A stretch of DNA of 62,597 nt, from positions 1-62,597 of the forward strand of contig JARKPK010000183.1 of the NCBI GenBank assembly GCA_029975295.1. Reading direction: 5' to 3'. This stretch comes from Thermoguttaceae bacterium (GTDB lineage Bacteria > Planctomycetota > Planctomycetia > Pirellulales > Thermoguttaceae). The position numbers were made by a program, and so were the translations under genes. This document shows, piece after piece, positions 8,429 to 35,248 of the stretch (its first letter is position 1; each line of letters starts with the position of its first letter). The notes under the pieces were generated by a model, which saw nothing but the letters and a program-made list of their open reading frames with translations, made no database searches and was not told the DNA's origin.

Positions 8429-9898
8429 ATGAACGCACATTCTTCCCGCCAGCGCGCGGGCGACCCCCAGTTTTCTTCTTACGATGTCGTAGTGATCGGC
8501 GCCGGGTTGGCGGGGCTGACGGCGGCAAACATCTTGGGCCGCGCCGGCCACCGCGTGCTTTTGCTCGAACAGCATGACAAACTGGGCGGGCTCGCCACGT
8601 GGTTCAAACGCAAAGGGCACATTTTCGATGTCTCTTTGCACGGTTTTCCCGTGGGAATGATCAAGAGTTGCCGACGCTACTGGAGCCCCGAGATCGCCGA
8701 CGCGATCGTTCAACTCAAACGGATTCATTTCGACAATCCGATGTTCTCGCTGGAAACAACGTTCGACCGTCGCGACTTCACGCGATTGCTCGTCGAACGA
8801 TTCGGCGTCGCGCCGCCGGCGGTTGACGCGTTTTTCGACGCAGCGCGGCAAATGAACTTCTTCGACGATCAATCGGTCACGACCGCCGATTTGTTCGAGC
8901 GATACTTCCCGGGCCGCGAAGACGTGGTGCGTTTGCTAATGGAACCGATCACCTATGCGAACGGCTCAACGTTGGAAGATCCGGCCCTGACCTATGGAAT
9001 CGTTTTCTCCAATTTCATGTCGAAGGGCGTTTACACCTTCGAGGGCGGCACCGATCGTTTGATCGGAATGATGGCCGACGAGCTTCGCCGCAACGGCGTC
9101 GATGTGTGCCTGCGATGCAATGTCGATCAAGTCCTCTGCGAAGGCGGACGAGTTCGCGGGGTCTTGGTCCATGGGAGGCCGATCGCCGCCCGCGCGGTCG
9201 TTTCCAATGCCAATCTTCTGGGAACGATTTTCGACCTGGTTGATGCCCGTCATTGGCCTGCCGACTTCCTCGAACAAGCCCGACAGGTTCGCTTGAACAA
9301 TTCGAGCACGCAGGTTTATTTCGGAATCCGCGCCGGCGACACGATCGACGAAGAGCAGTGCGGCGACCTGCTGTTCACGTCAACCGCGCCGCGGTTCTGC
9401 GCTCAGTCGTTGCTCAGCCGCGACGTCACCAGCCGCACCTTCTCCTTCTACTACCCGCGGACGCGTCCCGGTCACAATCGCTGCACCATCGTGGCCAGCA
9501 TGAACTCGCAGTTTGCCGATTGGGCCGATCTGCCGCCAGAGGAGTATCGCCGCGCCAAGCAGGCCTTGATCGACGACACGCTGCAATGCCTGGAAAAGTA
9601 TGTGCCCGACGTCCGCCAACGGATCGATTGGATGGAGTGCGGAACGCCGCGGACCTTCGCCCGCTACACCAAACACTGGCAAGGAGCCAGCTTCGGCACG
9701 AAGTTCGAGGGCCTGGCCGTCAGCCGCGCCATGCCGAACGTGATCGGCGGGCTCTACCATGCCGGCAGCGTGGGCATTATCATGTCGGGCTGGCTCGGGG
9801 CCGTCAACTACGGGGTGATCGTCGCCAACGAGGTGGACGCGTTTCTGTTGAACAACAGCTCTCAGTCGTCTTTCTCCGAGGAGACCGCATTGCCGTGA
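8429..9898 (+). CDS. Phytoene-desaturase-like FAD-dependent oxidoreductase (second copy)
   Basis: A 489-residue paralogue of the preceding enzyme. It shows the dinucleotide motif [13 protein letters not shown], the acidic strand end [11 protein letters not shown], and a C-terminal FAD motif in [15 protein letters not shown]. Similarity to the first copy appears limited to fold motifs, so the two probably perform different steps. ATG 8429 is chosen, since the upstream extension to 8321 is not conserved-looking. The stop codon overlaps the start of the FabZ-like gene (GTGA), implying translational coupling. Compared with carotenoid CrtI it sits with acyl-carrier enzymes and no phytoene synthase is present, so a carotenoid role is not supported by context. 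Confidence 0.88.
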
Positions 9899-10350
9899 GT
9901 CGCGACGAAATCCTGGCGGCCATCCCGCATCGTCCGCCTTTTTTGCTTGTTGATCGAATATTAGAGCGATCAGCCGATCGAATCCGCTGTTCAAAACGGT
10001 TCGACGAAAAGGAGTGCTTCTTCGCCGGGCACTATCCCGGGTTTCCGATCGTTCCCGGTGTTCTGCTGTGCGAAGCGGCCATGCAGGCAGGGGCGGTCCT
10101 CTTGTCTGCTCACGCCGAGATTAACGGCAAGATTCCCGTGGCCACGCGGATCGGCGATGTTCGCTTCAAACGGATGGTGCGTCCGGGCGACACGGTCGAA
10201 ATCGAAGTCGAGTTGGTCGAGCGCATGGCCGGGGCGTTCTTTCTCAAGGCCAAGGTTTCGGTGGAGACTTCGGTGGCCGCCCGGCTGGAGTTCGCATGCA
10301 CGTTGGCGCCGATGCCCGACGACGCCCCGGGCCGGCAAGCTCGCTATTGA
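9895..10350 (+). CDS. FabZ-like 3-hydroxyacyl-ACP dehydratase
   Basis: A 151-residue hotdog-fold dehydratase that would remove water from 3-hydroxyacyl-ACP to give a trans-2-enoyl-ACP. The N-terminus [12 protein letters not shown] is typical of FabZ. The catalytic pair is His46 in [13 protein letters not shown] and Glu60 in [15 protein letters not shown] 9895 overlaps the stop of the preceding gene by four bases and fixes the start. The longer upstream frame lies inside that neighbour and is spurious. Together with the ketosynthase and reductase it completes an elongation cycle, except that no FabG-type ketoreductase is encoded here and one would have to come from elsewhere in the genome. Confidence 0.9.
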
Positions 10351-10392
10351 TCGGGCGGCTGCAATACTCCATGATTCCGCGGTTGGGTGATA

Positions 10393-11193
10393 ATGACCGA
10401 CATTCTGCAACTGAGCGGCAAGCGATTCTTAGTGTTCGGCGTGGCCAATCGAAAGAGCGTCGCCTACGCGATCGGACGGCAGCTTGCTGCGGCCGGCAGT
10501 CACTGTGATTATGTGGTTCGCGACGAGGCAATCCGCCAACGGGTGGAACCGCTTCTCGAAGCCGCGGCCGTGGACTGCTGCGACCTGACTGACGACCGCC
10601 AAATCGAGGCACTTGCCGCCGCGCTCTCCGCCCGCGGCGCCCGCTACGATGGGCTGGTTCATTCCGTCGCCATGGCCGACTATCAGGAGGGCCCCGTTCC
10701 CTTTCATGAAACGCCGCGAGCAGCCTTTCTTCGGGCGGTCGATGTGTCGTGCTTCTCTCTGCTGGCAATTTGCAATGCCTTGAAGGATCGTCTCAACGCC
10801 GACGCATCGGTGGTGACAATCTCTATTTCGACCACGCGAATGGCCAGCGAAAGCTACGGGTACATGGCCCCGATCAAGGCGGCGTTGGAGTCGTCGGTGG
10901 CGTTTCTGGCCAAGTCGTTCAGCCGATTCTCGCGCGTGCGATTCAACGCGGTTGCGCCGGGGCTGCTGAAGACGTCGGCCTCGGCGGGCATTCCCGGCTA
11001 CGTCGACGCATACCTTTACGCCGAGCAGGTGATTCCCCGCAAGGAAGCAGTTCGCACCGACGAAGCCGCTGCGGCGGCCCTGTTCCTCCTCAGCCCCCTT
11101 TCGAGCGGCATCAATGCGCAGACGATCGTGGTCGATGCCGGAATGTCAATCAATTACTTCGACCGAGAAGTCATCAAGAAGGTCGTCAACTGA
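10393..11193 (+). CDS. FabI-like enoyl-ACP reductase (divergent)
   Basis: A short-chain dehydrogenase-fold protein of 266 residues, close to FabI length. The cofactor motif GVANRKSVAYAIG and the Tyr155-x6-Lys162 catalytic pair match FabI. By hand alignment the second FabI active-site tyrosine (Tyr146 in E. coli) corresponds to Ile145 here, within TISISTTRM, so substrate handling may differ. The end INAQTIVVDAGMSINYF is the usual C-terminal cofactor edge. ATG 10393 is chosen, with GTG 10387 an alternative. The gene follows the FabZ-like one by about 40 bp and closes the cluster. It could be a housekeeping FabI or a pathway-specific reductase. The context favours the latter. Confidence 0.82.
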   Translation: MTDILQLSGKRFLVFGVANRKSVAYAIGRQLAAAGSHCDYVVRDEAIRQRVEPLLEAAAVDCCDLTDDRQIEALAAALSARGARYDGLVHSVAMADYQEGPVPFHETPRAAFLRAVDVSCFSLLAICNALKDRLNADASVVTISISTTRMASESYGYMAPIKAALESSVAFLAKSFSRFSRVRFNAVAPGLLKTSASAGIPGYVDAYLYAEQVIPRKEAVRTDEAAAAALFLLSPLSSGINAQTIVVDAGMSINYFDREVIKKVVN

Positions 11194-12768: not shown

Positions 12769-13020
12769 ATGAACTGCGACGACCTGTTGCGCGCGTTGAA
12801 CGAGTTTGTCGACGGCGAGGTGGACCCCTCGATTTGCGACACGGTTCGGGCGCATTTAGCCGACTGCAATCCGTGTCAGATTGTCGTGGACAATATCCGC
12901 CGAACCATCACGCTCTACAAAGCCGGTGAACCTATCCCGATGCCGCCAGAGCTTTGCCGACACCTCCGCGAGGTGCTCAAGGCGAAATGGTCGAAGCACT
13001 TCTCGTGTTCGCAGGGTTAG
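12769..13020 (+). CDS. Small zinc-finger protein, anti-sigma-factor-like
   Basis: An 83-residue protein that begins MNCDDLLRALNEFVDGEVD and contains His29-x3-Cys33-x2-Cys36 (HLADCNPC). This is the zinc-binding arrangement of the putative zinc-finger (zf-HC2) domain found in ZAS anti-sigma factors. There is no membrane segment, so it resembles the soluble, RsrA-like form. Such proteins usually follow a sigma factor gene. None is adjacent here, since the upstream gene is a divergent glycosyltransferase. The partner is therefore unknown, and a regulatory role rests only on the motif. Confidence 0.8.
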   Translation: MNCDDLLRALNEFVDGEVDPSICDTVRAHLADCNPCQIVVDNIRRTITLYKAGEPIPMPPELCRHLREVLKAKWSKHFSCSQG

Positions 13021-13214: not shown

Positions 13215-13457
13215 ATGGATGGCAAAAGCCTTTCGATGTTGTTCATGCTCGTGGTTGCTTGGTTCGTCTTGAATCGCTGGGTGCTGCCCTTCTTCGGAGT
13301 GAACACGTGCATGTCGTGCAGCACTTCGTGCCAACCGCCGAGTCGGCCGACCGTTATCTATTCGGCAGATCGCTCAGAGACACCCGCGGAGAGCGATGAA
13401 GACCAGACGCTCCGTTCAGCTCCATCCAAGCCCGAAACAATCCAGAACCTTCCGTAG
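13215..13457 (+). CDS. Small single-pass membrane protein, unknown
   Basis: An 80-residue protein with one hydrophobic helix near the N-terminus (LFMLVVAWFVLNRWVLPFF). A cysteine pair CMSC and SCQPP follow, then a polar, charged tail with no motif. ATG 13215 is preceded by GGAGA about 10 bases upstream, which decides the start. The protein is not recognised. It lies 195 bp after the anti-sigma-like gene in the same direction and could be co-transcribed with it. Confidence that it is real rests on the ribosome binding site and the clean membrane segment. Confidence 0.5.
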   Translation: MDGKSLSMLFMLVVAWFVLNRWVLPFFGVNTCMSCSTSCQPPSRPTVIYSADRSETPAESDEDQTLRSAPSKPETIQNLP

Positions 13458-14023: not shown

Positions 14024-15409
14024 ATGCATTACCCTTGGTGGTACGTGCCCTATCTGACATCGCCGATGCTGATTGCGGCTGTTTCCGTTCTCCATGTGCT
14101 CGTATCGCATTACGCGGTTGGGGGCGGACTGTTTCTGGCCTTCGAAACCGCTTACGCTTACAAGCGCAACGACCGCGACTATCTGGCCTACCTCAAACGC
14201 CACGCAAAGTTCTTCGTGCTTCTTACGGTTGTTCTGGGGGCGATCACGGGCGTCGGAATCTGGTGGACGATCGGTTTGGCGTCGCCACTGGCCACGGAGG
14301 TGTTGATTCAGACCTTCGTGTTCGGATGGGCAACCGAGTGGGTGTTCTTCGTCATCGAGCTGACGGCCGCATTTATCTTCTTGTACTATTGGGGGCGTTT
14401 GCCGCCGCAGATTCACGTTCGGATCGGATGGCTTTACGCGGCTTCGGCCTGGATCAGTCTGGTGTTGATCACCGGCATCACCGCCTTCATGTTGAACCCG
14501 GGCAAGTGGCTCGATCAGCCCGACTTTTGGACGGGCTTTCTCAATCCCCAGTTCCTGCCGCAAACGATTGCGCGCACTGGCGGGGCGTTGCTGCTCTCGT
14601 CGCTTTATGTCTATCTTCATGCGGCCATTGTCATCAAGGATCAGCGATTGCAGCGGCAGATCGAACAGCGTTCGACAAGGCCGGCCCTTCTCGGCGCGGT
14701 GATGATCGCTCTGGGCGGACTAGCCTGGTACTTCTTCCTGCCCGAGTCAGCCATTCGCGCCCTTTCGGCCGCCGCCGCGCTGAACGTGCTGATGGGACTG
14801 CTCTTCGCAGCAACGATCGTGGTTTTCGCCGCCCTGTTCTTCGGGCCGTACCTCAACCCGGGCTGGCTGCACTCCCCCGGCTTTGCCGGTTGCTTGTTGG
14901 CCTTCGGCTTTATCGCGTTCAGCACGGGCGAGTTCATCCGCGAGGCGGTGCGAAAGCCCTACATTGTTTACAACGTAGTGTTCGGCAACGGCATTTTTCC
15001 CGAAGAAACATCGCGGCTTCGCCGTGAGGGATATTTGCAGGGCGGCACATGGACCGCGCAATACGTTCGGGCGAAATATCCTCAAGTGGTAGTGGACGGC
15101 CGCATCGACGACGACCGTTTGCGCGCCCTTGATCGGAACGCCCAGGTGGACTTGGGGGCCGTAATCTTCCAATACCATTGCAACGATTGCCATGCCCCGG
15201 CCGTCGGCTACTCGGCCGTGGGACCGTTGATTCAGGGCTGGTCGTCGCAGATGCTCGCCGACCTCGTCGATGAATTGCACGTCAAACGCTTCACCATGCC
15301 GCCGTTCTGCGGCACCGAGGCCGAACGCGACTTGCTCGTGGCCTACCTGCAGACCATCGCCCCCCCGCCGCCGCACGGCATGCGGCTCAACGGCAGCAGC
15401 ACCCGATAA
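14024..15409 (+). CDS. CydA-like membrane subunit with C-terminal cytochrome c domain
   Basis: A 461-residue protein. Residues 1-310 form about eight membrane helices resembling cytochrome bd subunit I, with His24 and His29 in VLHVLVSHYAVGGG and Glu112 in VFFVIELTA at places where CydA has heme ligands and proton-path residues. The long quinol-binding Q-loop of true CydA is not evident. Residues 375-445 form a monoheme cytochrome c domain: CNDCH (Cys386, Cys389, His390) with Met425 in TMPPF as probable sixth ligand. Such CydA relatives with fused heme c have been described by others as bd-family oxidoreductases of uncertain electron donor. A GAGG site precedes ATG 14024. The partner gene follows after 14 bp. 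Confidence 0.8.
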   Translation: MHYPWWYVPYLTSPMLIAAVSVLHVLVSHYAVGGGLFLAFETAYAYKRNDRDYLAYLKRHAKFFVLLTVVLGAITGVGIWWTIGLASPLATEVLIQTFVFGWATEWVFFVIELTAAFIFLYYWGRLPPQIHVRIGWLYAASAWISLVLITGITAFMLNPGKWLDQPDFWTGFLNPQFLPQTIARTGGALLLSSLYVYLHAAIVIKDQRLQRQIEQRSTRPALLGAVMIALGGLAWYFFLPESAIRALSAAAALNVLMGLLFAATIVVFAALFFGPYLNPGWLHSPGFAGCLLAFGFIAFSTGEFIREAVRKPYIVYNVVFGNGIFPEETSRLRREGYLQGGTWTAQYVRAKYPQVVVDGRIDDDRLRALDRNAQVDLGAVIFQYHCNDCHAPAVGYSAVGPLIQGWSSQMLADLVDELHVKRFTMPPFCGTEAERDLLVAYLQTIAPPPPHGMRLNGSSTR

Positions 15410-15423
15410 GACGGAAAGAACCC

Positions 15424-16578
15424 ATGGACCCTCAAGCCTTGATCGATACGACCTATCTGGCTCCGCTGCCGGCGCCGCTTTGGTTCATCCAGTTCTTTAA
15501 GGTGCTGGGCTTCGTTTTGCATTTGGTGTTGATGAACCTGTGGTATGCCGGCGTGCCTGTCGCCGTTGGGCTTTGGCTCAGTGGTCGCGCCCACGGACGG
15601 CGATGGACCACGCGACTCATCGCGCAAATGCCGCTGATCATCGCATTCGGGGTGAACTTCGGCATCGTGCCCCTGCTGTTCATTCAGGTGGCATACGGCA
15701 AGTTCTTCTATCCGGCAACGATACTGATGGCCTGGACGTGGTTCTCAGTATTCGTACTGCTGACGTTCGCCTACTACGGCATCTACTTGTTCGCGCATGG
15801 GCTGAAAACGTATGGTCCCAACCTGCCCAAGAGGTTTGCGGCGGCCGGTTGGGTTTCGGCACTGATCTTCGTGGCTCTGGGGTTTGTATTCGCCAACGCC
15901 ATGAGCCTGATGTCGAATGTGGCGGCCTGGCCCGGTCTGCTGCAAGACCACTCCGTCCACGGTGCAGCCCTTGGGACCGCGATGAACCTTTGCGACCCAT
16001 CCCTTTGGCCGCGGTGGTTAATGCTTTTCGGGCTGGCGCTGACCACGCTGAGCGTTTGGACCGTGGTTGACGCTGCGTGGTTCGCGGGAAACGAGTCGCC
16101 GGAATATCGCCAGTGGAGCTGCGGCTTCGCATGGAAGACCCATACGGTCGGCATGCTCATCTTCGCCGCCATGGGGGCGTGGTATGTGTTCGGCGCCTGG
16201 CCCGAGGACGTTCGTAACCGGATGCTGCACGGCCCGATGATTGCGCACACGCTGCTGACCGGCGCGATTCCCGGCGTCGTGTGGTTGCTGCTCGCCTGGG
16301 GAGCGCGTGCTTCGTCCTCGTCGGTCGCCAGAACGCCCCCCGGCCGCGGTTGGGCGTCAACGGTCTTCATCGCCCAAGTCGCCGTTCTCGCCATCAACGC
16401 GGTGACTCGGCAGATCGTTCAGAACATCGAACTGCAACGCTACAGCGCATCGCTCTGGAAAGAGACGGCCACACAGTGGAGCCCGATGGCCTTGTTCCTA
16501 GCCGTTTTTGTGCTTGGAGTTGGCGTGGTGGCCTGGATGGTTTTGCAAGTGGTCCGTGCGGAAAGGGCTTCGGGCTGA
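15424..16578 (+). CDS. Second CydA-like multi-pass membrane subunit
   Basis: A 384-residue protein with about nine hydrophobic segments. Its opening stretch FFKVLGFVLHLVLMNLWYAG aligns by eye with SVLHVLVSHYAVGGG of the preceding subunit, with His33 at the equivalent place, so the two look like distant paralogues. It lacks a CxxCH motif. It starts 14 bp after the stop of the heme c subunit, with GGAAAG ahead of ATG 15424, so the two are surely co-transcribed and form one complex. No CydB or CydX follows. The complex would be a pseudo-symmetric bd-like assembly. Its donor (a c-type carrier rather than quinol) and acceptor are inferences. Confidence 0.75.
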   Translation: MDPQALIDTTYLAPLPAPLWFIQFFKVLGFVLHLVLMNLWYAGVPVAVGLWLSGRAHGRRWTTRLIAQMPLIIAFGVNFGIVPLLFIQVAYGKFFYPATILMAWTWFSVFVLLTFAYYGIYLFAHGLKTYGPNLPKRFAAAGWVSALIFVALGFVFANAMSLMSNVAAWPGLLQDHSVHGAALGTAMNLCDPSLWPRWLMLFGLALTTLSVWTVVDAAWFAGNESPEYRQWSCGFAWKTHTVGMLIFAAMGAWYVFGAWPEDVRNRMLHGPMIAHTLLTGAIPGVVWLLLAWGARASSSSVARTPPGRGWASTVFIAQVAVLAINAVTRQIVQNIELQRYSASLWKETATQWSPMALFLAVFVLGVGVVAWMVLQVVRAERASG

Positions 16579-17222: not shown

Positions 17223-18341
17223 ATGCAGTCCCAAGCACGATGGAAACGACTGGCTAGCGTGTTCGGTTCGCTAACTCGTGTGCTCGTTTTTCTGATGTTC
17301 TCGGCGGGCGTTGTGGTCTTGCTCTTGTTCCTTGCCGGCAAGTTCCACACGAAGGTTCCCGTTGAATCCGCCGGCGCGACAGGGCGGGCGATCCCGCCGG
17401 GAACAGTGATTGTGGCGGTTGAGCCGGTCGAGACTCCGCGATTCGAGTCGGCCGTGGGCTCCGTGCGGGCTGTCCACGAAACCAGCGTCGGATCGAAACT
17501 CTTGGCCCGAGTGCTCGAAGTCAATGTCCGGTCCGGCCAAGCGGTTGAAGCGGGCGACGTGCTGATCCGCCTTGACGATACCGACATCAAAGCTCGGCTG
17601 AAACAGGCTGAGGCCTCTCTGGCAGCCGCGCGAGCCCGCTTCGACCAAGCGGCGGCGGATGAGAAGCGTTACGCCAACTTGGTCAAAGATCGAATCGTCA
17701 GCCAGCAAGAGTACGATCGCGCCGTGGCGACGGTGAAGTCCACCCAGGCCGAGGTGCGCCGCGCCGAAGAAGCGATAAACGAAGTTCAAGCCATGCTCGA
17801 TTGGGCGACGATTCGCGCGCCGATGTCGGGCATCGTCGTCGAGAAGAAGGTGGAAGTCGGAGATACAGTCGGCCCTGGGCAAACGCTCGTCGTGCTCTAC
17901 GACCCGCAACGCATGCAGCTTGTCGCGGCCGTGCGCGAATCGCTCGCCGTGCGATTGGAAGTTGGGCAAACCATCCCAGTGCGGCTTGAAAATCTCGACA
18001 AGCAGTGCGAGGGCACGATCGCCGAAATCGTTCCCCAAGCGGCTGCGGCCAGCCGGGCGTTCGACGTGAAAGTCACCGGCCCTTGTCCGCCCGGAGTTTA
18101 CAGCGGCATGTTCGGCCGAGTGTTGATCCCGCTGGAGAACGAGCGAGTGACTGCGATACCGCGCAGCGCGGTGCGGCGCGTCGGGCAGTTGGAGTTGGTC
18201 GATGTTGTTGACAACGGGCGTCTTGTCCGCCGCGCCGTGCGGATCGGGAGATCGCTCGACGATCAACGGGTCGAGGTTCTTTCCGGCCTGAAGGTGGGCG
18301 AGAAGGTCGCCCTGACGGAAGGAGGGTCGGCCCATGAGTGA
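17223..18341 (+). CDS. RND efflux periplasmic adaptor (membrane fusion protein)
   Basis: A 372-residue HlyD/AcrA-type adaptor. One N-terminal membrane anchor (residues 19-38) is followed by a split biotinyl-lipoyl domain (about 60-95 and 180-215) flanking a helical hairpin of about 80 residues rich in Ala, Glu, Gln and Lys. A beta-barrel and a membrane-proximal domain ending near GLKVGEKVALTEGG complete it. It would link the inner-membrane RND pump to an outer-membrane channel. The start ATG follows AGGAG. It overlaps the permease gene by 8 bp, so the two are co-expressed. No outer-membrane factor is encoded next to them, and the substrate is unknown. Confidence 0.9.
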   Translation: MQSQARWKRLASVFGSLTRVLVFLMFSAGVVVLLLFLAGKFHTKVPVESAGATGRAIPPGTVIVAVEPVETPRFESAVGSVRAVHETSVGSKLLARVLEVNVRSGQAVEAGDVLIRLDDTDIKARLKQAEASLAAARARFDQAAADEKRYANLVKDRIVSQQEYDRAVATVKSTQAEVRRAEEAINEVQAMLDWATIRAPMSGIVVEKKVEVGDTVGPGQTLVVLYDPQRMQLVAAVRESLAVRLEVGQTIPVRLENLDKQCEGTIAEIVPQAAAASRAFDVKVTGPCPPGVYSGMFGRVLIPLENERVTAIPRSAVRRVGQLELVDVVDNGRLVRRAVRIGRSLDDQRVEVLSGLKVGEKVALTEGGSAHE

Positions 18342-21300
18342 ATCGCTTTCAACTCGGGCGAAGCCGGAGCATCATTTCACCAACAAGATCGTTCAGATCT
18401 TCCTCGAATCGAATCTGTCGATCATCCTCATTGTCGTCGCCGTCGCTTTGGGGCTGGTCGCGCTTTGGGTGACGCCCCGCGAAGAAGATCCGCAGATCGT
18501 CGTCCCCTTGGCCGACGTGTTCGTGCAGTTCCCTGGACGTTCGGCGGCCGAAGTCGAACAACTCGTTGCCACGCCGCTGGAAAAAATACTCTACCAAATC
18601 GACGGGGTGGAGTATGTCTACTCGATGAGCAGCCGCGATCAAGCGATCATCACCGTGCGTTTCTTCGTGGGCGAAGACCGCGAGCGGAGTCTGGTTAAAC
18701 TCTTCAAGAAGATGGATGAGAGCCTCGACTTGGCGCCGCCCGGCGTGACCGGCTGGATTGTCAAGCCAGTTGAGATCGACGACGTTCCGATCGTCACGCT
18801 CACATTGACCTCGGCAACGGCCGACGACATGACCTTGCGGCGCACGGCCGAGGAACTCACAGAACGGCTTGCTGCGGTGTCGAATGTGTCGCGAGCCTAC
18901 GTTGTCGGCGGCCGGGCCCGAAGCGTGAGGGTGCTGCTCGACCCCGAGCGGATGGCCGCCTATGGCGTGGGCCCCGCCGACGTGCGACGGGCGATTGCGG
19001 CCACGAACCTTCGTCGCCGCGCCGGCGAACTCCGCAACAACGACGAAGTGATTGAAGTCGAGGTCGGCCAACCCTTCTACGATGCCCGTCAGCTCAACGA
19101 ATTGGTGGTCGGCGTAACTGATCAACGGCCCGTTTTTCTCAAAGACGTCGCCGCGATCGAAGACGGCGCCGAGGAGGTCGGGAACTACGTCCGCCACGGC
19201 TGGGGACCGGCGAAAAGATTCGTGCACCACGAAGCTTTCCCGGGCACTGTGTTGGGACAGAGTCTTCACGCGCCTTCACACGAATCGGAACTCCAAGGCC
19301 AAGCGGCGTCTTCAGACCAATCCCCTTCGGATTCGCAGCCCGCTGTAACAATCGCCATTGCCAAGAAGAAGGGAGCCAACGCGGTTTGGGTGGCCGAGGC
19401 CGTGCTGGCTGAGGCGGAGCGTTTGCGCGCAGAGATCGTGCCGGAAGACATGGAATTGGTGGTCACTCGCAACTACGGACTGACGGCGGACGAGAAGGTC
19501 AACGAACTCGTTGAAGCGTTGGTCGTGGCCGTGATTATCGTTATCGCGCTGCTGACGATGAGCCTCGGCTGGCGCGAAGCGCTGATCGTGGCTGTGGCGG
19601 TTCCGGTTGTGTTCGGCCTGACGCTGGCCGTCAACCTGCTGTTCGGCTTCACGATCAACCGCGTCACGCTTTTCGCCCTGATCCTTTCGCTGGGCCTGCT
19701 GGTTGACGACCCGATTGTCGACGTGGAAAACATCGCTCGCCATTTCGCCCTGCGAAACAAGGCTACGCGGCGGATTGTGTTGGAAGCGGTCGCCGAAATC
19801 CGGCCGCCGCTAATCACTGCCACCCTGGCCGTGATCGTCAGTTTTCTGCCGATGTTCTTCATCACCGGCATGATGGGGCCGTACATGCGGCCGATGGCCC
19901 TGAACGTGCCGGTTACGATGATCATGTCGATGGTCGTGGCGTTCACGATCACTCCTTGGCTCTCTTACTTGATGCTGCGAAAGAAGTACGCCCACGGCCA
20001 CGCAGCAGGGCATCATGCCGACGACGACTTGGAAGCCGTCAAGCAATCGGCGCTGTACAAGCTGTTTTATCCCCTCATGGCTCCCTTGCTCAGTTCGCGA
20101 TGGACCGCATGGGGATTCCTTTTGACGATGACGCTGTTGACGATCGGCGCCGTCGGGCTGGCCGCGTTGCGAACCGTCCCGTTGAAGATGCTGCCTTTCG
20201 ACAACAAGAACGAGCTTCTGCTCGTGCTCGACCTGCCCGAGGGAACAACACTCGAGCGCACCGACGCAGCCGTTCGCGATTTCGAAGACTATTTGGCCCA
20301 TGTTCCCGAGGTGGTCAACTACATCAGCTACGTCGGCGTCGCCTCGCCGATGGACTTCAACGGGCTTGTTCGGCATTATTACTTGCGCCGCGGCGACCAC
20401 CTTGCCGAGGTTCGAATCAACTTGGCGGCAAAGAAGAACCGCCGGCAACAGAGCCACGGCATCGGGTTGAGAATGCGGCCCTCATTGCACGAAATCGCCG
20501 CGCGCCACGGTGCAACGCTAAAACTGGTCGAAACGCCGCCCGGGCCGCCCGTCATCGCCAGCATTGTCGCCGAAGTGTACGGCCGGGCCGACGATTCCTA
20601 CGAGAAGATCCTCGCTGCGGCCGATGTCGTCCGAGAGCGGCTGGCCCGCGAACCGGGCATTGTCGATCTCGACGACGTGCGCGAGGCGCCGCAAACTCGG
20701 GCCGTCTTCATTCCCGACACGGAAAAAGCGGCGATCAACGGCGTTTCGGTGGAGGACATCAGCGCGACGATTCGCGCGGCCTTTGGCGACGCGGTGGGAA
20801 CGATCCACGACCCGCGCGAACGCAATCCCCTGAAAATCGAATTGCGCATTCCCATCGACCGCCGCGCGACCCCTCTGGAATTGACTCGGTTGCACGTCAA
20901 GGGACGAGAGGGCGCGTTGGTGCCGCTGGCCGAGCTGGGCCAGTGGACGGAAGAACGCCGCGACCAAATGATTTATCACAAGAACCTGAAACGCGTAGCC
21001 TACGTTTTCGCGGAAACGGCGGGACGTCCGCCCGCCGACGTGATCGTCGATGTGCTGGCCGATCGCGTTGTCGCAACCGAGAACATCAGCTCTCCGCCGC
21101 CTGCGGGCGCACTGAACGTCGGTCCCGGCTGGGTGGCCGCGAGCGAACCGCGACCGACGGCTAGCCGCACCTTCTTTCACAACGGCAGCGGCATCGCGTG
21201 GTCAACCCCGCCCGGCTTTCGCATCGATTTCGCGGGAGAAGGCGAATGGCAGATCACGCTCGATGTCTTCCGAGACCTGGGATTGGCTTTTGCCGCCGCG

Positions 21301-21828
21301 ATGGTGGGCATCTATGTTCTGCTGGTGGCCCAAACCGGCTCGTTCACCATTCCCGTGGTGGTGATGCTGGCGATTCCGCTGACCGTGCTTGGGGTGCTGC
21401 CGGGCTTCTGGCTGCTGAACATGGCCAGTGCCGAAAATATCGGCGGTTACCTCGACCCGGTGTATTTTACCGCCACAGGGATGATCGGAATGATCGCCTT
21501 GGCAGGCATTGTCACTCGCGATTCGATCATCCTGGTCGATTTCATTCATCTCTCCCTGGCCCGAGGGCGGTCGCTCTTCGACGCCATTATGGAGAGCCGT
21601 GTCGTGCGACTCAGGCCGATCCTGCTGACCGCCGGGGCCGCGATGCTCGGCGCCGTGCCGATCATCATCGACCCGATCTTTTCCGGATTGGCGTGGTCGC
21701 TGATCTTCGGACTGTTCGCCTCCACGCTATTCACGCTTTTCGTGATTCCCGTGGCGTATTGGCTGATCTACGACCGGGTGCCGGGCCATGGCTTGCACCA
21801 CTCGACCATGGACGAAGAGTCGCCGTAA
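18334..21828 (+). CDS. RND-family efflux permease
   Basis: An inner-membrane proton-driven pump of the AcrB/MexB superfamily, 1164 residues. Typical members have about 1030-1070 residues. Asp458-Asp459 in LLVDDPIVDVEN are the paired aspartates of the proton relay in TM4. The porter domains and the C-terminal GMIGMIALAGIVTRDSIILVDF segment are clear. The excess length comes from two places. One is a polar, Ser/Gln/His-rich stretch at about residues 288-334, between porter subdomains. The other is a segment around residues 918-945 before FFHNGSGIAWS. Both would lie on the periplasmic side. The gene overlaps the adaptor gene by 8 bp. The substrate is not predictable. Confidence 0.9.
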   Translation: MSESLSTRAKPEHHFTNKIVQIFLESNLSIILIVVAVALGLVALWVTPREEDPQIVVPLADVFVQFPGRSAAEVEQLVATPLEKILYQIDGVEYVYSMSSRDQAIITVRFFVGEDRERSLVKLFKKMDESLDLAPPGVTGWIVKPVEIDDVPIVTLTLTSATADDMTLRRTAEELTERLAAVSNVSRAYVVGGRARSVRVLLDPERMAAYGVGPADVRRAIAATNLRRRAGELRNNDEVIEVEVGQPFYDARQLNELVVGVTDQRPVFLKDVAAIEDGAEEVGNYVRHGWGPAKRFVHHEAFPGTVLGQSLHAPSHESELQGQAASSDQSPSDSQPAVTIAIAKKKGANAVWVAEAVLAEAERLRAEIVPEDMELVVTRNYGLTADEKVNELVEALVVAVIIVIALLTMSLGWREALIVAVAVPVVFGLTLAVNLLFGFTINRVTLFALILSLGLLVDDPIVDVENIARHFALRNKATRRIVLEAVAEIRPPLITATLAVIVSFLPMFFITGMMGPYMRPMALNVPVTMIMSMVVAFTITPWLSYLMLRKKYAHGHAAGHHADDDLEAVKQSALYKLFYPLMAPLLSSRWTAWGFLLTMTLLTIGAVGLAALRTVPLKMLPFDNKNELLLVLDLPEGTTLERTDAAVRDFEDYLAHVPEVVNYISYVGVASPMDFNGLVRHYYLRRGDHLAEVRINLAAKKNRRQQSHGIGLRMRPSLHEIAARHGATLKLVETPPGPPVIASIVAEVYGRADDSYEKILAAADVVRERLAREPGIVDLDDVREAPQTRAVFIPDTEKAAINGVSVEDISATIRAAFGDAVGTIHDPRERNPLKIELRIPIDRRATPLELTRLHVKGREGALVPLAELGQWTEERRDQMIYHKNLKRVAYVFAETAGRPPADVIVDVLADRVVATENISSPPPAGALNVGPGWVAASEPRPTASRTFFHNGSGIAWSTPPGFRIDFAGEGEWQITLDVFRDLGLAFAAAMVGIYVLLVAQTGSFTIPVVVMLAIPLTVLGVLPGFWLLNMASAENIGGYLDPVYFTATGMIGMIALAGIVTRDSIILVDFIHLSLARGRSLFDAIMESRVVRLRPILLTAGAAMLGAVPIIIDPIFSGLAWSLIFGLFASTLFTLFVIPVAYWLIYDRVPGHGLHHSTMDEESP

Positions 21829-21968: not shown

Positions 21969-22337
21969 TTATGAGCCGGCGTTACGCATTGTCTCTTGCA
22001 GGGCGCGAATATCCGGTTGATAGGTGGTCGAGTCGAGCAGGGCCAGGGCGATGAAAAGCAGCAGCGTCAACAACGCCGAAAGAAAAACCACCGCATTGAA
22101 CGGATGATCGTAGCGCAAGTGCATGAAGTACAGAACCACCAGCGCGGCCTTGATCGTTGCGATGATCAGGGCAATCCAAACGTTCCAACGGCCCAGGTCG
22201 AACCATGTGGCCGCCACGGTCAGAAAGGTGAGCAGCATCAACGCGATGAACACCGCCAGAAGCACCGGCAACGGAACGACATGGGCATAGTGCGCCGACG
22301 CTGAACTGTCGTGCTTGTCGTGAGAGTGTTCGCTCAT
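21969..22337 (-). CDS. Cytochrome c oxidase subunit IV (caa3 type)
   Basis: A 122-residue small subunit with three membrane helices, the small fourth subunit of bacterial caa3/aa3 oxidases. The N-terminus is His- and Asp-rich (SEHSHDKHDSSASAHYAH). It contains the conserved KAALVVLYFMHLRYD, characteristic of this family. ATG 22337 is used. The longer frame to 22466 begins in the spacer after subunit III. It is the last gene of the respiratory operon, 165 bp after subunit III. It is thought to stabilise the oxidase and carries no cofactor. Confidence 0.9.
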   Translation of the reverse strand: MSEHSHDKHDSSASAHYAHVVPLPVLLAVFIALMLLTFLTVAATWFDLGRWNVWIALIIATIKAALVVLYFMHLRYDHPFNAVVFLSALLTLLLFIALALLDSTTYQPDIRALQETMRNAGS

Positions 22338-22502
22338 TTCCTTCTTCCGTCGTGAACTTCTCGCCGCCTGATATTCGCAATCCCCGCACGCCGCCGAATT
22401 TCGTTCCCGCATGGCCGGGGCCACGCGCCGGCATCGTCCCCGGCCACGACTCCGGCGGGCGATCATCGCCCGAGGCCTCGCCCCTGTCCGCGGCCGACCG
22501 AA

Positions 22503-23288
22503 TCAATGAATCAAATACAACAGCGGAAAAAGATAGATCCAAATCAGATCGACCAAGTGCCAATAGAGCCCGACGAAATCGACCGGACCAAAATACAGCG
22601 GCCCGAAATGACCCTTGATCGAGCGCACCAGCACCCAGGTGATCGCGCCCATGCCGGCCAAAACATGCAAGCCGTGCAAAGCCGTCATTCCGAAGTAACA
22701 ACCGAAAAAGGGAAACAGTCCGGCGGCCCGGCGGGTGGCTTCGGCGTCGTCCACCTCTTCGCCGTGCTCGGCAAGATGCTTTCGCACGTAATCGGCGTCG
22801 GGTTGATATCCTCGCTCGGGCGCGGGCGAGTCTTTTCGCAACCAACCCAGCGCCACGAACCAAGCGATGCGCTCTTGCCCAGGCACCAAGCCGTGGTCCC
22901 ATTTCGCCTTGTATTCCACGAACTTCACGCCCATGAATCCCACGCCGCAAAGCAACGTGACGATTAACGAACCGACCAGCAGCCGGCGGCGGTCGGTTTG
23001 CGCCGCAGAGACGGCCAACGCCATCGTCAAGCTGCTGAAGATCAAGACGCATGTGTTTACCGCGCCCAGATAGCGATCGAGAAAAAGATGGCCGTCTTGG
23101 AACATTTCCGGATGGTTGGCACGATACACCGAGTATGCGCAGAACAACCCGCCGAACAGCAAAATCTCGGTCAGCAAAAACAGCCACATCCCCAGCTTGC
23201 CAGCGGCAAACTGTTGCCGCGGCGAGTCGAAATGGTGCGCCAGGAAGGGCGCATGATTGTCGTGCGTGGCTTGGTCTGCTTCGGTCAT
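22503..23288 (-). CDS. Cytochrome c oxidase subunit III
   Basis: A membrane subunit of the heme-copper oxidase, about 261 residues with seven predicted helices. Conserved features include the opening KLGMWLFLLTEILLFGG and the C-terminal LYWHLVDLIWIYLFPLLYL. The protein has a longer hydrophilic insertion in the middle (about residues 145-190, DSPAPERGYQPDADYVRKHL) than mitochondrial-type subunit III, which seems common in relatives with caa3 clusters. ATG 23288 is chosen, with 23321 also in frame. It lies 16 bp after the stop of subunit I. The subunit supports stable turnover of the oxidase and has no metal centre. Confidence 0.93.
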   Translation of the reverse strand: MTEADQATHDNHAPFLAHHFDSPRQQFAAGKLGMWLFLLTEILLFGGLFCAYSVYRANHPEMFQDGHLFLDRYLGAVNTCVLIFSSLTMALAVSAAQTDRRRLLVGSLIVTLLCGVGFMGVKFVEYKAKWDHGLVPGQERIAWFVALGWLRKDSPAPERGYQPDADYVRKHLAEHGEEVDDAEATRRAAGLFPFFGCYFGMTALHGLHVLAGMGAITWVLVRSIKGHFGPLYFGPVDFVGLYWHLVDLIWIYLFPLLYLIH

Positions 23289-23304
23289 AGCGATGATCAC
23301 GGCG

Positions 23305-24969
23305 TTAGGCGACGCGAACATAGTCGTTCGATCGCGGGTCGAACCTCAATTTGCTGTAGTCGTATGGGTCGCCAACCACCGGCGGCGTTGTGAAGTTTTC
23401 GACGGGCGGCGGGGAGCTGGTCTGCCACTCCAGCCCGGCTCCGCCGTAAGGGTTTCGGGGGGCGGGCCGCCCGGCGACGATCGAAACAAGAAGGTACCCG
23501 GCCATCATGATGAACGCCGCGGCCACCAAATACGATCCCAGCGACGAAAGCCAGTGGCCGCCGTGGAAGTCGGGGTGGGCGGGCAGCAGCTTCTCGTAAT
23601 CGTAGTAGCGGCGCGGCATGCCGCGCGACCCGCTGACGAACTGCGGGAAGAACGTGTGGTTGAAGCCGACGAACAACAGCAGAGCGGTGAACTTGCCCCA
23701 CGCGTCGCTGTACATCTTGCCGGTGATCTTCGGCCACCAATAATGAATGCCGGCGATAAAGGCGATGGCCGTGCTTCCCATCATCGTGTAGTGGAAATGC
23801 GCTACGATGAAATAGGTGTCGGTCAAATGCACGTCGGTAGAAAGCGAGCCGAGGAACAGGCCCGTCAGCCCTCCAATGCCGAAAAGAAAGATGAACATCA
23901 GCCCATAGCACATCGGCGTTTCCAGAGAGATCGAGCCTTTATACAGCGTCGAGAGCCAGTTGAACACCTTGATGGCCGAGGGGATCGACACGCTGAACGT
24001 CAGAGCGCTGAAGATCATGCTGGCCAACCGCGTTTGGCCGCTGACGAACATGTGGTGCCCCCAAACCAAAAAGCCGAACAGCGCAATGGCAATGCTGCTA
24101 TAGGCGATGAACCGATAGCCGAAGATATGTTTTCGGCTGAAGACGGAGATGATCTCGCTTGTGATTCCCATGCCCGGCAAAATCATGATGTAAACGGCCG
24201 GGTGCGAGTAGAACCAGAAGAAATGCTGGAACAGCACCGGATCGCCATTGAGCGACGGGTCGAAGAATCCGATGCCGAACAACCGTTCCAAAGCAAGCAG
24301 AAGCAGAGTGATTCCGAGGACCGGAGTGGCCAAAAGCTGAATGATCGCCGTGGCATACAAGGCCCAAACGAACAGAGGCATTTTGAACCAACCCATCGCC
24401 GCCGGCCGCATCGTGTGGACGGTGGCGATGAAATTGACCGCGGTGAAAATCGAACTGAACCCCAAAATGAACGCACCAACCACGGCCGCCACCACACTGC
24501 TCTGACCGGTGGTCGTGCTGTACGGGGTGTAGAATGTCCAGCCCGTCTCCAGCCCGCCGGTGATCAGCACCACAACGAAGAAGACGGCGCCTCCCCAAAA
24601 CATGTAGAGGCTGGCCAGGTTCAGCCGCGGAAACGCCACGTCTTTCGCGCCGAGCATGATCGGCAGCACGAAATTGCCTAAAGCGGCCGGAATGCCCGGA
24701 ATAATGAACAAGAACACCATGACCGCGCCGTGCAAGGTGAACATGTGGTTGTACATGTCGCGGCCCATGATGGTTCGCCCCGGCGCAATTAGCTCGGTTC
24801 GCACCATCAAGGCGAAAACGCCGCCGAGAAGGAAAAAGGCGAGAATGGAGGCGAGATACATCACCCCGATCCGCTTATGATCCAGGGTGAACAGCCACGA
24901 CATCACGCCCCGTCGCGCGGTCAGATAGTTTTCTGCGGATCGAGGGCTTTCGACGGCAACTTCAGACAT
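23305..24969 (-). CDS. Cytochrome c oxidase subunit I, A2-type heme-copper oxygen reductase
   Basis: The catalytic subunit (554 residues, 12 or more helices) reduces oxygen to water and pumps protons. Visible ligands are His80 and His393 for low-spin heme a, His391 for high-spin heme a3, and His256, His305 and His306 for CuB. The cross-linked tyrosine is Tyr260 and the K-channel lysine is Lys334. Helix VI reads YSHPAVY. The D-channel glutamate of A1 enzymes (HPEVY) is replaced by the Tyr254-Ser255 pair that defines the A2 family, as in Rhodothermus caa3. So this is a functional variant and not a broken site. ATG 24969 is chosen. The gene sits between subunits II and III. Confidence 0.95.
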
Positions 24970-25154
24970 GCCAGACCAGTCCGTATTCCGAATAATGGAT
25001 TCATGCGATAAGGAAGGCGGCCGACAGCGAAACACATCGGCCGATTGTGTACGACACAACCGCTCAACCGTCTTCCGCCGTCTGCGGCTTTCGTGCGAAA
25101 TCAGACGGCCCCCCAATCACAAACTCAACTGCCCTAAGGAGCAAAGGCCGGGCG

Positions 25155-26171
25155 CTAGGGCGACTCGCCCTTGGCCGAGCCGCCCAATGACTTGATGTAC
25201 GCGATCAGGTATCCGATTTCTTCATCGCTCAGCACGCCCTTGAAGGTGGGCATCTGATTGACGAACCCCTCACGAATCCGCTTGCCCGGTTCAAGGATCG
25301 ATTCGCGAACATAGTTCTCGTCCACCACGGCCGTGCTGCCGTCGGTCATCCGATGCGTCTCTCCCCAAATGCCCAACAGTGTGGGCCCCGTGCCCGCTTT
25401 GCCGTCCACCGAATGGCATTGCGCGCATCCACGGCGCCGGTGCAGTTCTTCGCCGGCCTTTTCGGGCGGCAGCTTCTTGAGGAAGTCCCCGGCCTCGCGC
25501 AGCCAAGCGGCGAACTCGGCCGCTTCCAGCACGACCACTTTGCTCAGCATGTCGGCGTGCCCCGAACCGCAGTACTCAGCGCAGAACAGACTGTACTCGC
25601 CGGGCTTGATCGCCTTGAACCACATCTTCGTATAGCGCCCCGGCACCAAATCCTGCTTCACGCGAAAATCGGGAATGTAAAGGCTGTGGATCACGTCGTC
25701 GCTGGTCATCACCAGCCGTACGGGCTCGGCCGCGGGAACGTAGAGTTTGTCGTCCACATAGCCGTTGGGATACTTGAAAAGCCAAGCCCACTTCTTGGCA
25801 ATGACGTTGATCTCGTACGCGTCGCGCGGCGGCGTGCGCATGTCCATGTAGCCTTCAAACCCGTAGTAGAACATCAAGCACACGAGGATCACCGGGATGA
25901 CGCTCCAGAGCAACTCCAGCGCCGTATTGTGATGCGGCGACTCTTCGACCTCTTGCCGGTCCGGCCGGCGGCGATACCGCAAGACGAACCAGCACATCAA
26001 CGCCACGATCAGCGCGAAGAAGAACAGCGAAACATACAGAATGAAATTGAACACCCAATCGACATCGCGGGCGAAGGTCGAAGCGCGGTCGGGCAGCCAA
26101 AAGTACGGCTGTGAGCCGCTTTGCGCCCAAGGCCCCCAAATGGCCGCGAGGGAGGAAAGAATCTGATTCAT
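25155..26171 (-). CDS. Cytochrome c oxidase subunit II with fused cytochrome c domain (caa3)
   Basis: A 338-residue subunit. Two N-terminal helices (about residues 40-65 and 87-108) anchor a cupredoxin domain with the CuA ligands His162, Cys197, Glu199, Cys201, His205 and Met208 (CAEYCGSGHADM). The C-terminus is a cytochrome c domain with CAQCH (Cys249, Cys252, His253) and a Met ligand in QMPTFKG. This fusion marks caa3 oxidases, which accept electrons directly from a partner complex or a small c-type carrier. Its start codon overlaps the stop of a small upstream frame by four bases. Placing it directly downstream of alternative complex III and SCO1 supports a complex III-oxidase supercomplex. 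Confidence 0.95.
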   Translation of the reverse strand: MNQILSSLAAIWGPWAQSGSQPYFWLPDRASTFARDVDWVFNFILYVSLFFFALIVALMCWFVLRYRRRPDRQEVEESPHHNTALELLWSVIPVILVCLMFYYGFEGYMDMRTPPRDAYEINVIAKKWAWLFKYPNGYVDDKLYVPAAEPVRLVMTSDDVIHSLYIPDFRVKQDLVPGRYTKMWFKAIKPGEYSLFCAEYCGSGHADMLSKVVVLEAAEFAAWLREAGDFLKKLPPEKAGEELHRRRGCAQCHSVDGKAGTGPTLLGIWGETHRMTDGSTAVVDENYVRESILEPGKRIREGFVNQMPTFKGVLSDEEIGYLIAYIKSLGGSAKGESP

Positions 26172-26428
26172 CGTTGCCGGCGCCGCAACGCGGCGCGCCT
26201 GTTCTTTCGATCGATTCCCACGTTGGTATCGAACAGCAAAAACATTTCAGTCAATAACGCCCCCAGCGAACCCAAAACGCAATCGGCCGCTTCACCCGGC
26301 CGGGGGTCGCCTTCCGGATCGCCAGAGACCAATTCACACAACAATCCCGATCGCAACGCAGCGACGCCGCCATAGTGCATCATGCCGTGGAACATCCCGC
26401 TAAAGTGCGATTTTCCTTGCTCGGGCAT
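26168..26428 (-). CDS. Possible small protein between SCO1 and oxidase subunit II
   Basis: A frame of about 86 codons (ATG 26428, with alternatives at GTG 26446 and ATG 26395) fills most of the 314-bp spacer. Its TGA overlaps the ATG of subunit II (ATGA), as in translationally coupled genes. It has a His- and Met-rich start (MFHGMMHYGG), a moderately hydrophobic middle (VLGSLGALLTEMFLLF) and a basic tail (RKNRRAALRRRQR). I do not recognise it. The overlap and His/Met content are suggestive, but the basic tail could equally be chance GC-rich translation. Confidence 0.3.
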   Translation of the reverse strand: MPEQGKSHFSGMFHGMMHYGGVAALRSGLLCELVSGDPEGDPRPGEAADCVLGSLGALLTEMFLLFDTNVGIDRKNRRAALRRRQR

Positions 26429-26485
26429 GACGGGCCCGGAGCCCACCGTCGGCCCGATGACGCCGGCCGCGAGAGAATCGGCTCT

Positions 26486-27334
26486 CTATGGCACGGCTCC
26501 GACCGGCTGGTCCAACCTGTTGCTGCGTCCGATCTCTCCTCGCCAAAGTCGCCAGAAAACCACTCCGAGAACGACCAGCATGATCAGCCCGGCTGCCTGC
26601 ATCAACCGCACGGCCGCCAAGCTGTAACTGCCGCTCCGTCCGTCGTATTGGTAACAGAACAGCAGCACTTCATCCCAAACCGAGCCCACCTGCCCCTGGC
26701 CGGCCTCGTACAGCGACAATCGCAGCGTCTCCGAATTGTAGTCCACCCCGCCGATGTAACGCGCAACTCGTCCGTTGGGCGTACACAAGATCAGAGCGGC
26801 CGCGTGCAGATACTCGCGTCGCTCGGCCGAATAGACATAACCAAACCCCACCGCATCGGCCAATCGGCGGATGCGATCTTCGTTCGGCGTGACCAAGAAT
26901 CGCCAAGCGTTCGCATCGGTTGCCCGACCGTAAGCCTTCAGGTACTTCTGCTTCGTCAACTGCGCGCGTTCGGCCGTTTCCAACGGATCGATGCTCACCG
27001 TGACAATCCGAAACTGCTCGCCGGCGGTCCATTTCATTCGCTCCAACGCACTGACCAAACCGTCGAGCTGCAAGCTGCACAGCATCGGGCAGTTCGAATA
27101 GTTCATCGTTAGGATCACCGGCTTCGTCCCATCGAACACCTCGCCCAAGGTGATCGTCTGCCCCGAGGAATCGACGAAAGCCAAATCGAGCGGAACCTGC
27201 GCATCGAACTGCGGAAAAATGCCCACGCCGCGCAATTCGTCGGGCGCCTGTTCCTTTCGCTCGGCCCGCACCATCGCCGGGCCGAACACCAAACCGAACA
27301 ACACAAGGACGGACAAGACGGATGTCGCTTTCAC
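26486..27334 (-). CDS. SCO1/SenC-family copper chaperone
   Basis: A thioredoxin-fold protein of 282 residues that delivers copper to, or reduces, the CuA site of subunit II. The copper-binding motif is Cys82-PML-Cys86 (NCPMLC) with His177 in EYLHAAAL. An N-terminal signal or anchor (about residues 5-22) and an extra C-terminal helix (LMQAAGLIMLVVLGVVFW) bracket the domain. The C-terminal helix is less usual for this family, suggesting a double anchor. GTG 27334 is chosen because GGGAGG precedes it. The frame is open to TTG 27361. It sits inside the operon between complex III and oxidase genes, matching its role in oxidase assembly. Confidence 0.92.
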   Translation of the reverse strand: MKATSVLSVLVLFGLVFGPAMVRAERKEQAPDELRGVGIFPQFDAQVPLDLAFVDSSGQTITLGEVFDGTKPVILTMNYSNCPMLCSLQLDGLVSALERMKWTAGEQFRIVTVSIDPLETAERAQLTKQKYLKAYGRATDANAWRFLVTPNEDRIRRLADAVGFGYVYSAERREYLHAAALILCTPNGRVARYIGGVDYNSETLRLSLYEAGQGQVGSVWDEVLLFCYQYDGRSGSYSLAAVRLMQAAGLIMLVVLGVVFWRLWRGEIGRSNRLDQPVGAVP

Positions 27335-27395
27335 GGCTCTTGCTCCCTCCCCGTAACACAAACGATCTCAGCAACGCCGCCAGCGGGGAACGCGG

Positions 27396-27731
27396 CTACT
27401 GCGAGCCCTTTTCCGGCTGCTGCGCCGCCTTGGCCGCCAGCTCGTCCACCACCAACTTCATGGCTCGGCCGATCGGAATGGCCACAATCTTCTTCTCGGC
27501 ATCCAACAAACGGTAATCGGCAAGCTGACCTTCCTGCTGGGCGACCAGCCGGCGCATCTCAGCCGGCGGAACGGCCAGGTCTTTCTCGGCCCGCTGCCGT
27601 CCTTCCGCATTGTAATACACCACGATCAGCAAGACGATTACGGCAAACACGATGATCGCCCCAAGGAAGCCGACAACGGCCACCATCGGCGTATTGATGT
27701 CTTCGTGACTCGCCAGGGTCTTGCTCTCCAC
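27396..27731 (-). CDS. Small membrane protein between actF and SCO1, unknown
   Basis: A 111-residue protein with one N-terminal hydrophobic segment (about residues 17-40, VAVVGFLGAIIVFAVIVLLIV). A soluble helical part contains EGRQRAEKDL and VPPAEMRRLVAQQEGQL, then RLLDAEKKIVAIPIGRAMKLV. No cofactor motif is visible. The start is GTG 27731. It lies within the alternative complex III/caa3 operon, 142 bp after ActF and 61 bp before SCO1. It could be an accessory subunit or assembly factor of either complex. The soluble part is reminiscent of short conserved proteins in such operons, but I cannot name a family. Confidence 0.7.
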   Translation of the reverse strand: MESKTLASHEDINTPMVAVVGFLGAIIVFAVIVLLIVVYYNAEGRQRAEKDLAVPPAEMRRLVAQQEGQLADYRLLDAEKKIVAIPIGRAMKLVVDELAAKAAQQPEKGSQ

Positions 27732-27873
27732 CGAACTATCCTTCCAAAATTAAGCTGCCCCACGGCCGCAATCGACTCTGCCGAGCCGACCAATCCACCG
27801 GCCGATGGTCGGCCGCGCACGACCGGCCCGACCAGCCAGCGCAAGCACTCCCTGCCGCTAAAATCCGCCAATA

Positions 27874-29112: not shown

Positions 29113-29371
29113 GGGGATTCTGCTTGCGGCGATCGCAGGAAGCGACGGCTCGCTATAAAGGTATCCTCACAAGAAGCTTGCAACGGTCAAGGGGCATGGG
29201 TTCGGCCCAGTCGGCGATCTCTTGCGCAACCGTCGCTGTTTCAACCACCTAAACGCCGCACCAAGCGCAACTCCGTCTTTCGGACAGTCTCCCTAATCCT
29301 CCGACGACCGATCGGCAAGCCGTTGGCGCCACCACCGGCCGCGAGGCAAGCGCCGCGGGCGATGACTGCAA

Positions 29372-30604: not shown

Positions 30605-30716
30605 TCCGCACCGTTTCGGCGGTTAGCGCATCGGGCAACGGATTAGGCGTCTGACCCACTGTGTCGTCGCGCCGCGATTGGCCGTCTGCTCTCGTTGCCT
30701 GACTGCATTCGAACCG

Positions 30717-35100: not shown

Positions 35101-35131
35101 AATATCCATGTTGAGCGTGCTGTTCAGTCAC
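32114..35131 (-). CDS. actB: Alternative complex III iron-sulfur subunit ActB
   Basis: A 1005-residue extracytoplasmic subunit. It opens with a twin-arginine-like stretch ([21 protein letters not shown]), suggesting TAT-type export. The N-terminal part (to about residue 750) resembles molybdopterin oxidoreductases, but in this family it carries no molybdenum cofactor. The last 250 residues are ferredoxin-like with four cysteine clusters: [37 protein letters not shown], and CTYC together with CQQACP. In characterised homologues these hold three [4Fe-4S] and one [3Fe-4S] clusters. GTG 35131 is chosen over TTG 35155. It lies between ActA and ActC. Confidence 0.93.
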
Positions 35132-35248
35132 GTTGTCGTTTCCGGTCTGACCCAAGCGGATTCGCCCCTCACGCCGGCAAGCGGCCGCCCGCCGCGAAAA
35201 ACCCTGCGCCGTCGGGCATCTGCCCTTTCGTCGCCGATGCGCCTGCCG

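Follow-up and report, generated by a model that had tools for sequence, protein, structure and literature searches.

The stretch of DNA that was analysed (the window, 62,597 nucleotides of a Thermoguttaceae contig) includes two adjacent genes on the + strand. The first, P1 (14024..15409), encodes a bd-superfamily subunit I of 461 amino acids with eight transmembrane helices and a C-terminal monohaem cytochrome c domain. The second, P2 (15424..16578), encodes a putative CydA-paralogous partner of 384 amino acids with about nine transmembrane helices that falls in no Pfam or NCBIfam family. The initial annotation described the region as two CydA-like membrane proteins 14 bp apart, and we confirmed both the coordinates and the open frames.

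P1 matches PF01654 with 68.4 bits (cut-off 26.2), best over residues 16-230. A P1 profile built from 62 sequences, the window's P1 included, matched a CydA profile (32 planctomycete sequences and E. coli) with 98.6% probability in a profile-profile comparison. In this alignment E. coli CydA His19, Glu99, Glu107 and Glu445, which we take to be the active-site ligand positions, correspond respectively to P1 His24 (codon 14093..14095, +), Glu105 (14336..14338, +), Glu112 (14357..14359, +) and Glu307 (14942..14944, +), the last being part of the motif E303-xx-RE-xx-RKP. Residues were counted over 65 P1 sequences, i.e. the 62 of the profile and three from plasmids. Glu105 is found in all 65, His24 in 64 (the remaining one has a gap there) and Glu112 in 64, with Asp in Thermus; Glu303, Arg306, Glu307, Arg310, Lys311 and Pro312 are each present in 65/65. 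With its PF01654 match, its CydA fold and the four active-site ligand positions kept, P1 is a bd-superfamily subunit I.

The ligands of haem b558 are presumably CydA His186 and Met393. His186 is replaced in P1 by Arg184 (14573..14575, +; profile alignment), which is found in 65/65 sequences, and the P1 positions around Met393 (254, 257 and 258) are variable. The quinol Q-loop between TM6 and TM7 is absent from P1, where it corresponds to a gap in the profile alignment with CydA; at this site helices 207-237 and 251-276 are separated by 13 residues. The earlier suggestion that the Q-loop is missing held for P1. P1 has neither the b558 histidine nor the Q-loop that mark the qOR group.

The AF2 model of P1 (pLDDT 93.2) shows eight long helices. 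Over residues 7-324 it fits solved structures of bd subunit I, with Z 30.0-33.3 and rmsd 2.5-2.9 A over 310-316 residues. Residues 371-448 (15134..15367, +), delimited by the cytochrome c matches of the model, superpose on solved cytochromes c with Z ~6.5 and rmsd 2.1-2.6 A over 75-77 residues in most of the matches, and score 25.2 bits against PF13442, just below the cut-off of 27. The domain includes the haem-c attachment site CNDCH at residues 386-390 (15179..15193, +), in which C386, C389 and H390 are each conserved in 65/65 sequences, and the likely distal haem-c ligand Met425 (15296..15298, +), also in 65/65. The C-terminal monohaem c domain was correctly recognized from these residues at the outset. 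Because the model has eight helices with the N-terminus outside, the cytochrome c domain that follows the eighth helix should be outside as well; the distribution of K/R in the loops under this N-out model (8 inside, 2 outside) agrees. In some P1 homologues (L124, L127, L131 and L132) the cytochrome c domain is set off from the membrane core by an additional 100-200 residues.

P2 has no match in Pfam or NCBIfam at E <= 1, PF02322 (CydB) included, and none among PDB sequences at E <= 10. P2 homologues from Thermus, Agrobacterium, Methylosinus and loci L051 and L025 likewise gave no Pfam match over cut-off, and the one from L050 exceeded it for cytochrome c families only. The L050 homologue (8904-10742, -; genome G051) has 612 amino acids and includes extra C-terminal cytochrome c domains. 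Profile-profile comparison connects P2 to P1 with 95.8% probability (E 6.8e-9, 274 columns), as was anticipated when P2 was called a distant paralogue of P1. The probability against the CydA profile alone is 6%; the link between P2 and CydA runs through P1 and the fold. For the P2 model (pLDDT 94.0; nine membrane helices, some limits of which were set by eye) the best-matching chain of each of the ten bd entries is subunit I (Z 25.6-27.5, rmsd 3.9-4.5 A, 345-358 residues), subunit I and CydB being told apart in solved entries by chain length and letter. The next best matches are NrfD-like subunits of alternative complex III, with Z 16.6-17.6. Beyond the bd and NrfD-like groups, the fold search with the membrane parts of both models found nothing well above background, a result that excludes nothing.

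Four P2 residues, His33, Gly80, Pro83 and Arg197, are each present in 62/62 sequences. His33 (15520..15522, +) aligns with P1 His24 in TM1 and is the sole CydA-type haem-ligand position unchanged throughout P2; the glutamate ligands are missing. The position facing Glu307 is Gln330 in 53/62 sequences. In four divergent P2s (Thermus, Methylosinus, L025 and L051) it is a Glu within RE-xx-R, which looks like a remnant of a second CydA active site. The initial annotation envisaged a pseudo-symmetric enzyme and regarded loss of haem ligands as an argument against it. The architecture it proposed is borne out, with the qualification that the halves are unequal: the active-site positions are invariant or nearly so in P1, while P2 has lost most of them and keeps His33.

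P1 and P2 are a stable unit. Among 60 relatives, the window's own genome included, strong matches were found for P1 in 27 genomes, for P2 in 27 and for both in 26; weak P1 matches in G015, G036 and G050 were excluded. In the one genome with P1 only (G022) the contig, seemingly L071, ends 43 bp past the match, and the one with P2 only (G009) is 82% complete. The two genes are adjacent in 23 of the 26 pair-bearing relatives, fused in one of these; G008, G024 and G031 retain both genes on different contigs. A phylum-wide sample of 294 genomes gave P1 (> 100 bits) in 28, P2 (E <= 0.001) in 27 and both in 26, scoring the best matches of each genome (up to six candidates for P2 and five for P1), so that misses are possible. 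To reach these numbers, 26 of 54 genomes with P1 matches were dropped, as their matches were weaker and in many cases covered the cytochrome c domain or the CydA core alone. G234 and G257 have P1 only and G166 has P2 only (45 bits). All phylum pairs are adjacent save in G120, where the matches are ~2 kb apart with P2 first (25/26 adjacent). Fisher p values of 8e-34 (294 genomes) and 1e-14 (60 genomes) are nominal, as the genomes are not independent and three of them are in both sets.

Of the 80 named loci, 58 have P2 as a separate neighbour of P1 (54 with P1 first, 4 with P2 first) and one has the two fused. The other 21 gave no P2 profile match in the fetched stretch; at least five of these (L067, L071, L081, L107 and L115) break off within 0.4 kb of the P1 gene. 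Over 47 loci, P1 distances correlate with P2 distances with r 0.92, a value obtained without species-tree control, against 0.43 for the best of 1000 label shuffles. Chance is excluded, since tens of genomes show both the ligands and the pairing. The natural in-frame fusion (L035, 9210-11792, -; genome G014) encodes 860 amino acids. L041 was also considered as a fusion and rejected: its N-terminal half is read in a different frame, and P1 lies in an ORF of its own. P2 precedes P1 at L096, L099, L108 and L114, all planctomycete MAGs, of which three have titles that point to ruminant gut.

Upstream of the pair, the window encodes a zf-HC2 protein (12769..13020, +; PF13490), with homologues at 8/80 named loci, and a small membrane protein with a CxxCxxxC stretch and a putative start codon (13215..13457, +), whose homologues (tblastn E 3e-11 and 5e-10) lie upstream of the pair at 5/80. 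Downstream are a HlyD/CusB-type membrane-fusion protein (17223..18341, +; PF16576/PF13437) and an RND permease of the AcrB family (18334..21828, +; PF00873, 499 bits). These two efflux genes (17223-21828, +) are co-linear with the pair in a planctomycete subset, and RND matches of > 1000 bits occur near the pair at 9/80 named loci. In a Pirellulales subset, efflux and YgaP-like genes lie beside the pair; at L057, L058 and L065 the gene order is zf-HC2, small cysteine protein, YgaP-like transmembrane protein, P1, P2, HlyD and RND. No convincing match to the YgaP-like gene was found in the 12.5-17.3 kb stretch of the window, so the window seems to lack this member of the cluster; the other cluster genes are present. 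Further downstream, on the - strand (21969-36028), the window encodes an alternative complex III (ActD, NrfD-like, Fe-S and multihaem subunits) and subunits I-IV of a caa3-type oxidase. This cluster makes a cytochrome c pool likely.

The window's genome (5.01 Mb) includes a single PF01654 match. It gave no match to PF02322 genome-wide, which extends the initial remark that no CydB follows the pair. CydB is missing from 24 of the 27 P1-bearing genomes, the window's own included. PF00115 is absent from 12 of the 27, of which G011 has CydB and the other 11 do not. Within the oxidase families searched, haem-copper (PF00115) and CydB, these 11 MAGs (87-94% complete) thus have no terminal oxidase other than the pair. 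G021, one of the 11, seemingly corresponds to record L108 from water-buffalo omasum. ActD was found in 0/11 and PF13631 cytochrome b in 9/11. G004 and G014 (MAGs, 94 and 93% complete) encode the pair, and none of PF00115, CydB, ActD and PF13631 was matched in them. The strongest objection to a cytochrome c-fed enzyme is that none of the cytochrome c reductase families searched was found in these two genomes. ResB (PF05140) was dropped as evidence of cytochrome c maturation, as the window's genome itself gave no match; the window nonetheless encodes several c-type cytochromes.

We consider it probable (about 0.62) that P1 and P2 form a heterodimeric, CydB-less O2 reductase of the bd superfamily that is fed by cytochrome c. 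Ligand positions and pairing can be read from the genes; the cofactors, the electron donor and the acceptor, O2, we infer. The haem c in the C-terminal domain of P1 would be reduced by a periplasmic c-type cytochrome and would pass electrons to two high-spin haems in the four-helix core of P1. His24, Glu105 and Glu307 would be the ligands of these haems, with Glu112 close by, and the haems would operate without a b558 on P1 and without the known quinol site. By analogy with the superfamily, O2 would be reduced to water at the P1 core with cytoplasmic protons. P2, with its glutamate ligands lost and one invariant histidine kept, would take the structural place of CydB and might bind one haem or help to shape the route of the protons. 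For the organism from which the window comes, we picture the pair as a side branch to the alternative complex III and the caa3 oxidase ~5 kb away.

With b558 lost, the electron route from haem c to the core is no longer given, and the invariant P2 histidine is a natural candidate for binding an extra haem. Electrons might then pass from haem c to a haem at P2 His33, replacing b558, and from there to the two-haem site of P1. We regard this version as tentative and rather doubtful. If true, it would be a bd-type oxidase with a redox chain that spans both subunits, and it would be the only terminal oxidase in several relatives, one of them from ruminant gut.

Three other explanations have to be weighed against an O2 reductase fed by cytochrome c. 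The pair could reduce a ligand other than O2 in vivo (NO, peroxide), or mainly scavenge O2 without energy conservation, as its presence in planctomycete MAGs from ruminant gut (by record titles), where respiration is doubtful, might suggest. We find this unlikely: P1 keeps the core ligand positions, and the characterised members of the bd superfamily reduce O2. The subset of loci with the YgaP-like transmembrane protein, HlyD and the RND pump also fits such a role, as a study on Azospira reports that related genes, a DUF2892 gene and RND genes, rise under sulfide (PMC5358917). The RND link is limited to 9/80 named loci, though, and the same study reports an unchanged sulfide oxidation rate upon deletion of the SQR-RND operon or of DUF2892 (PMC5358917). 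Any sulfide response of the pair loci would be by analogy, and a link of this neighbourhood to sulfide stress is a guess from Azospira. It is improbable that the pair is instead a quinone-interacting enzyme (quinol:cytochrome c or the reverse) with a new quinone site in P2 and no O2 chemistry. Such an enzyme would suit G004 and G014, from which the cytochrome c reductase families searched are missing. NrfD-like subunits of alternative complex III rank right after bd subunits for both models, and a quinone role of this kind was raised by the Nitrospina authors for other bd-like proteins (PMC3578206). P1, however, lacks the Q-loop and the b558 histidine, and it keeps all four active-site ligand positions, which a quinone role would not need.

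Very improbable, in our view, is that P2 is a CydB-type subunit, which would make the enzyme a two-subunit bd oxidase fed by a c-type donor. The fold is common to CydA and CydB and does not by itself separate them cleanly. In Foldseek, CydB-type chains match the P2 model too, and 7oy2 places its shorter, CydB-like chain before the longer one; the fold of P2, which was to decide whether it is CydB-like, matches both and is a weak test. CydB is also without most of the ligand positions, as is P2. The profiles point the other way, with 95.8% for P2 against P1 and 24.7% over 72 columns for P2 against CydB (HHalign), as do the best solved chain, which is subunit I in all ten bd entries, the invariant His33 and the four divergent P2s that keep RE-xx-R where P1 has it. 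The CydB reading, examined by Pfam, HHalign and the fold search, is not favoured, and by profile P2 appears to be a distant paralogue of P1 that is closer to P1 than to CydB.

The OR-C group, which Murali, Gennis and Hemp reportedly defined in 2021, is said to comprise bd subunits I that carry haem c and lack a quinol site. P1 fits this definition (haem c in subunit I, no quinol site), and the pair probably belongs to OR-C. Cytochrome bd (CydAB, qOR) shares with P1 the fold and the CydA active-site ligand positions, but the pair has no Q-loop, b558 histidine or CydB and includes a fused cytochrome c. Archaeal CydAA' also consists of two CydA paralogues with no CydB; it uses quinol and has no fused cytochrome c, in contrast to P1, which lacks the Q-loop. 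Five bd-like proteins of other planctomycetes, presumably of the OR-N or anammox type, are 601-715 amino acids long, have no CxxCH in the chain and stand apart from P1 in the tree. The existence of qOR, OR-C and OR-N groups in the bd superfamily is mentioned in two papers (PMC13189123, PMC11707229). For OR-N/bd-like oxidases of Nitrospira, Nitrospina and anammox bacteria, a cytochrome c donor and CydAA' pairing have been proposed (PMC10839748), and the Nitrospina bd-like protein is described as lacking quinol-binding residues and having 14 transmembrane helices (PMC3578206).

No description of a P1-P2 enzyme was found in the titles and opening abstracts retrieved by full-text searches of open-licence PMC papers. 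P2 is absent from Pfam, NCBIfam and PDB sequences as searched; P1 itself would be filed under OR-C. If the O2-reductase reading holds, many uncultured phyla couple cytochrome bd chemistry to the cytochrome c pool, by a subunit that the family databases searched do not recognize and that plasmid records mostly call 'hypothetical protein'. This could explain O2 consumption where organisms appear to be oxidase-free. The pair would also be a natural test of a bd enzyme that works without b558 and without quinol.

Placement in a bd-superfamily phylogeny, proposed at first for both proteins, was obtained for P1. A quick tree of 80 rows (65 P1, ten of the 33 CydAs and the five long bd-like proteins), to be read with a warning of long branches, separates the 65 P1 rows from the CydAs and the five long proteins by a branch of SH-aLRT 99. 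Among named P1s, one from a Pirellulales MAG is the closest to that of the window. Fifteen P1 rows from other phyla, including Acidobacteriota, Chloroflexota, Bacteroidota, Bipolaricaulota and Armatimonadota, group together (SH-aLRT 98) inside the planctomycete rows, which they join via forks of 83-98. The placement suggests that planctomycetes were the source of a transfer to other phyla; mis-binning of MAGs may contribute to the pattern. Deeper-branching non-planctomycete rows are from Thermoflexus, WOR-3 and plasmids.

A plasmid search with P1 found four records with 27-28% identity, and one with P2 itself found none at E <= 1e-5. On the plasmids of Thermus thermophilus, Agrobacterium and Methylosinus, the gene after P1 matches the P2 profile with 72-82 bits and has no significant CydB match; two of these genes are annotated 'hypothetical protein' and one 'cytochrome C'. 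On the Agrobacterium (L228) and Methylosinus (L229) plasmids the pair is followed by genes annotated as an ATP-binding protein and a response regulator, and the Methylosinus copy lies near a methanobactin gene.
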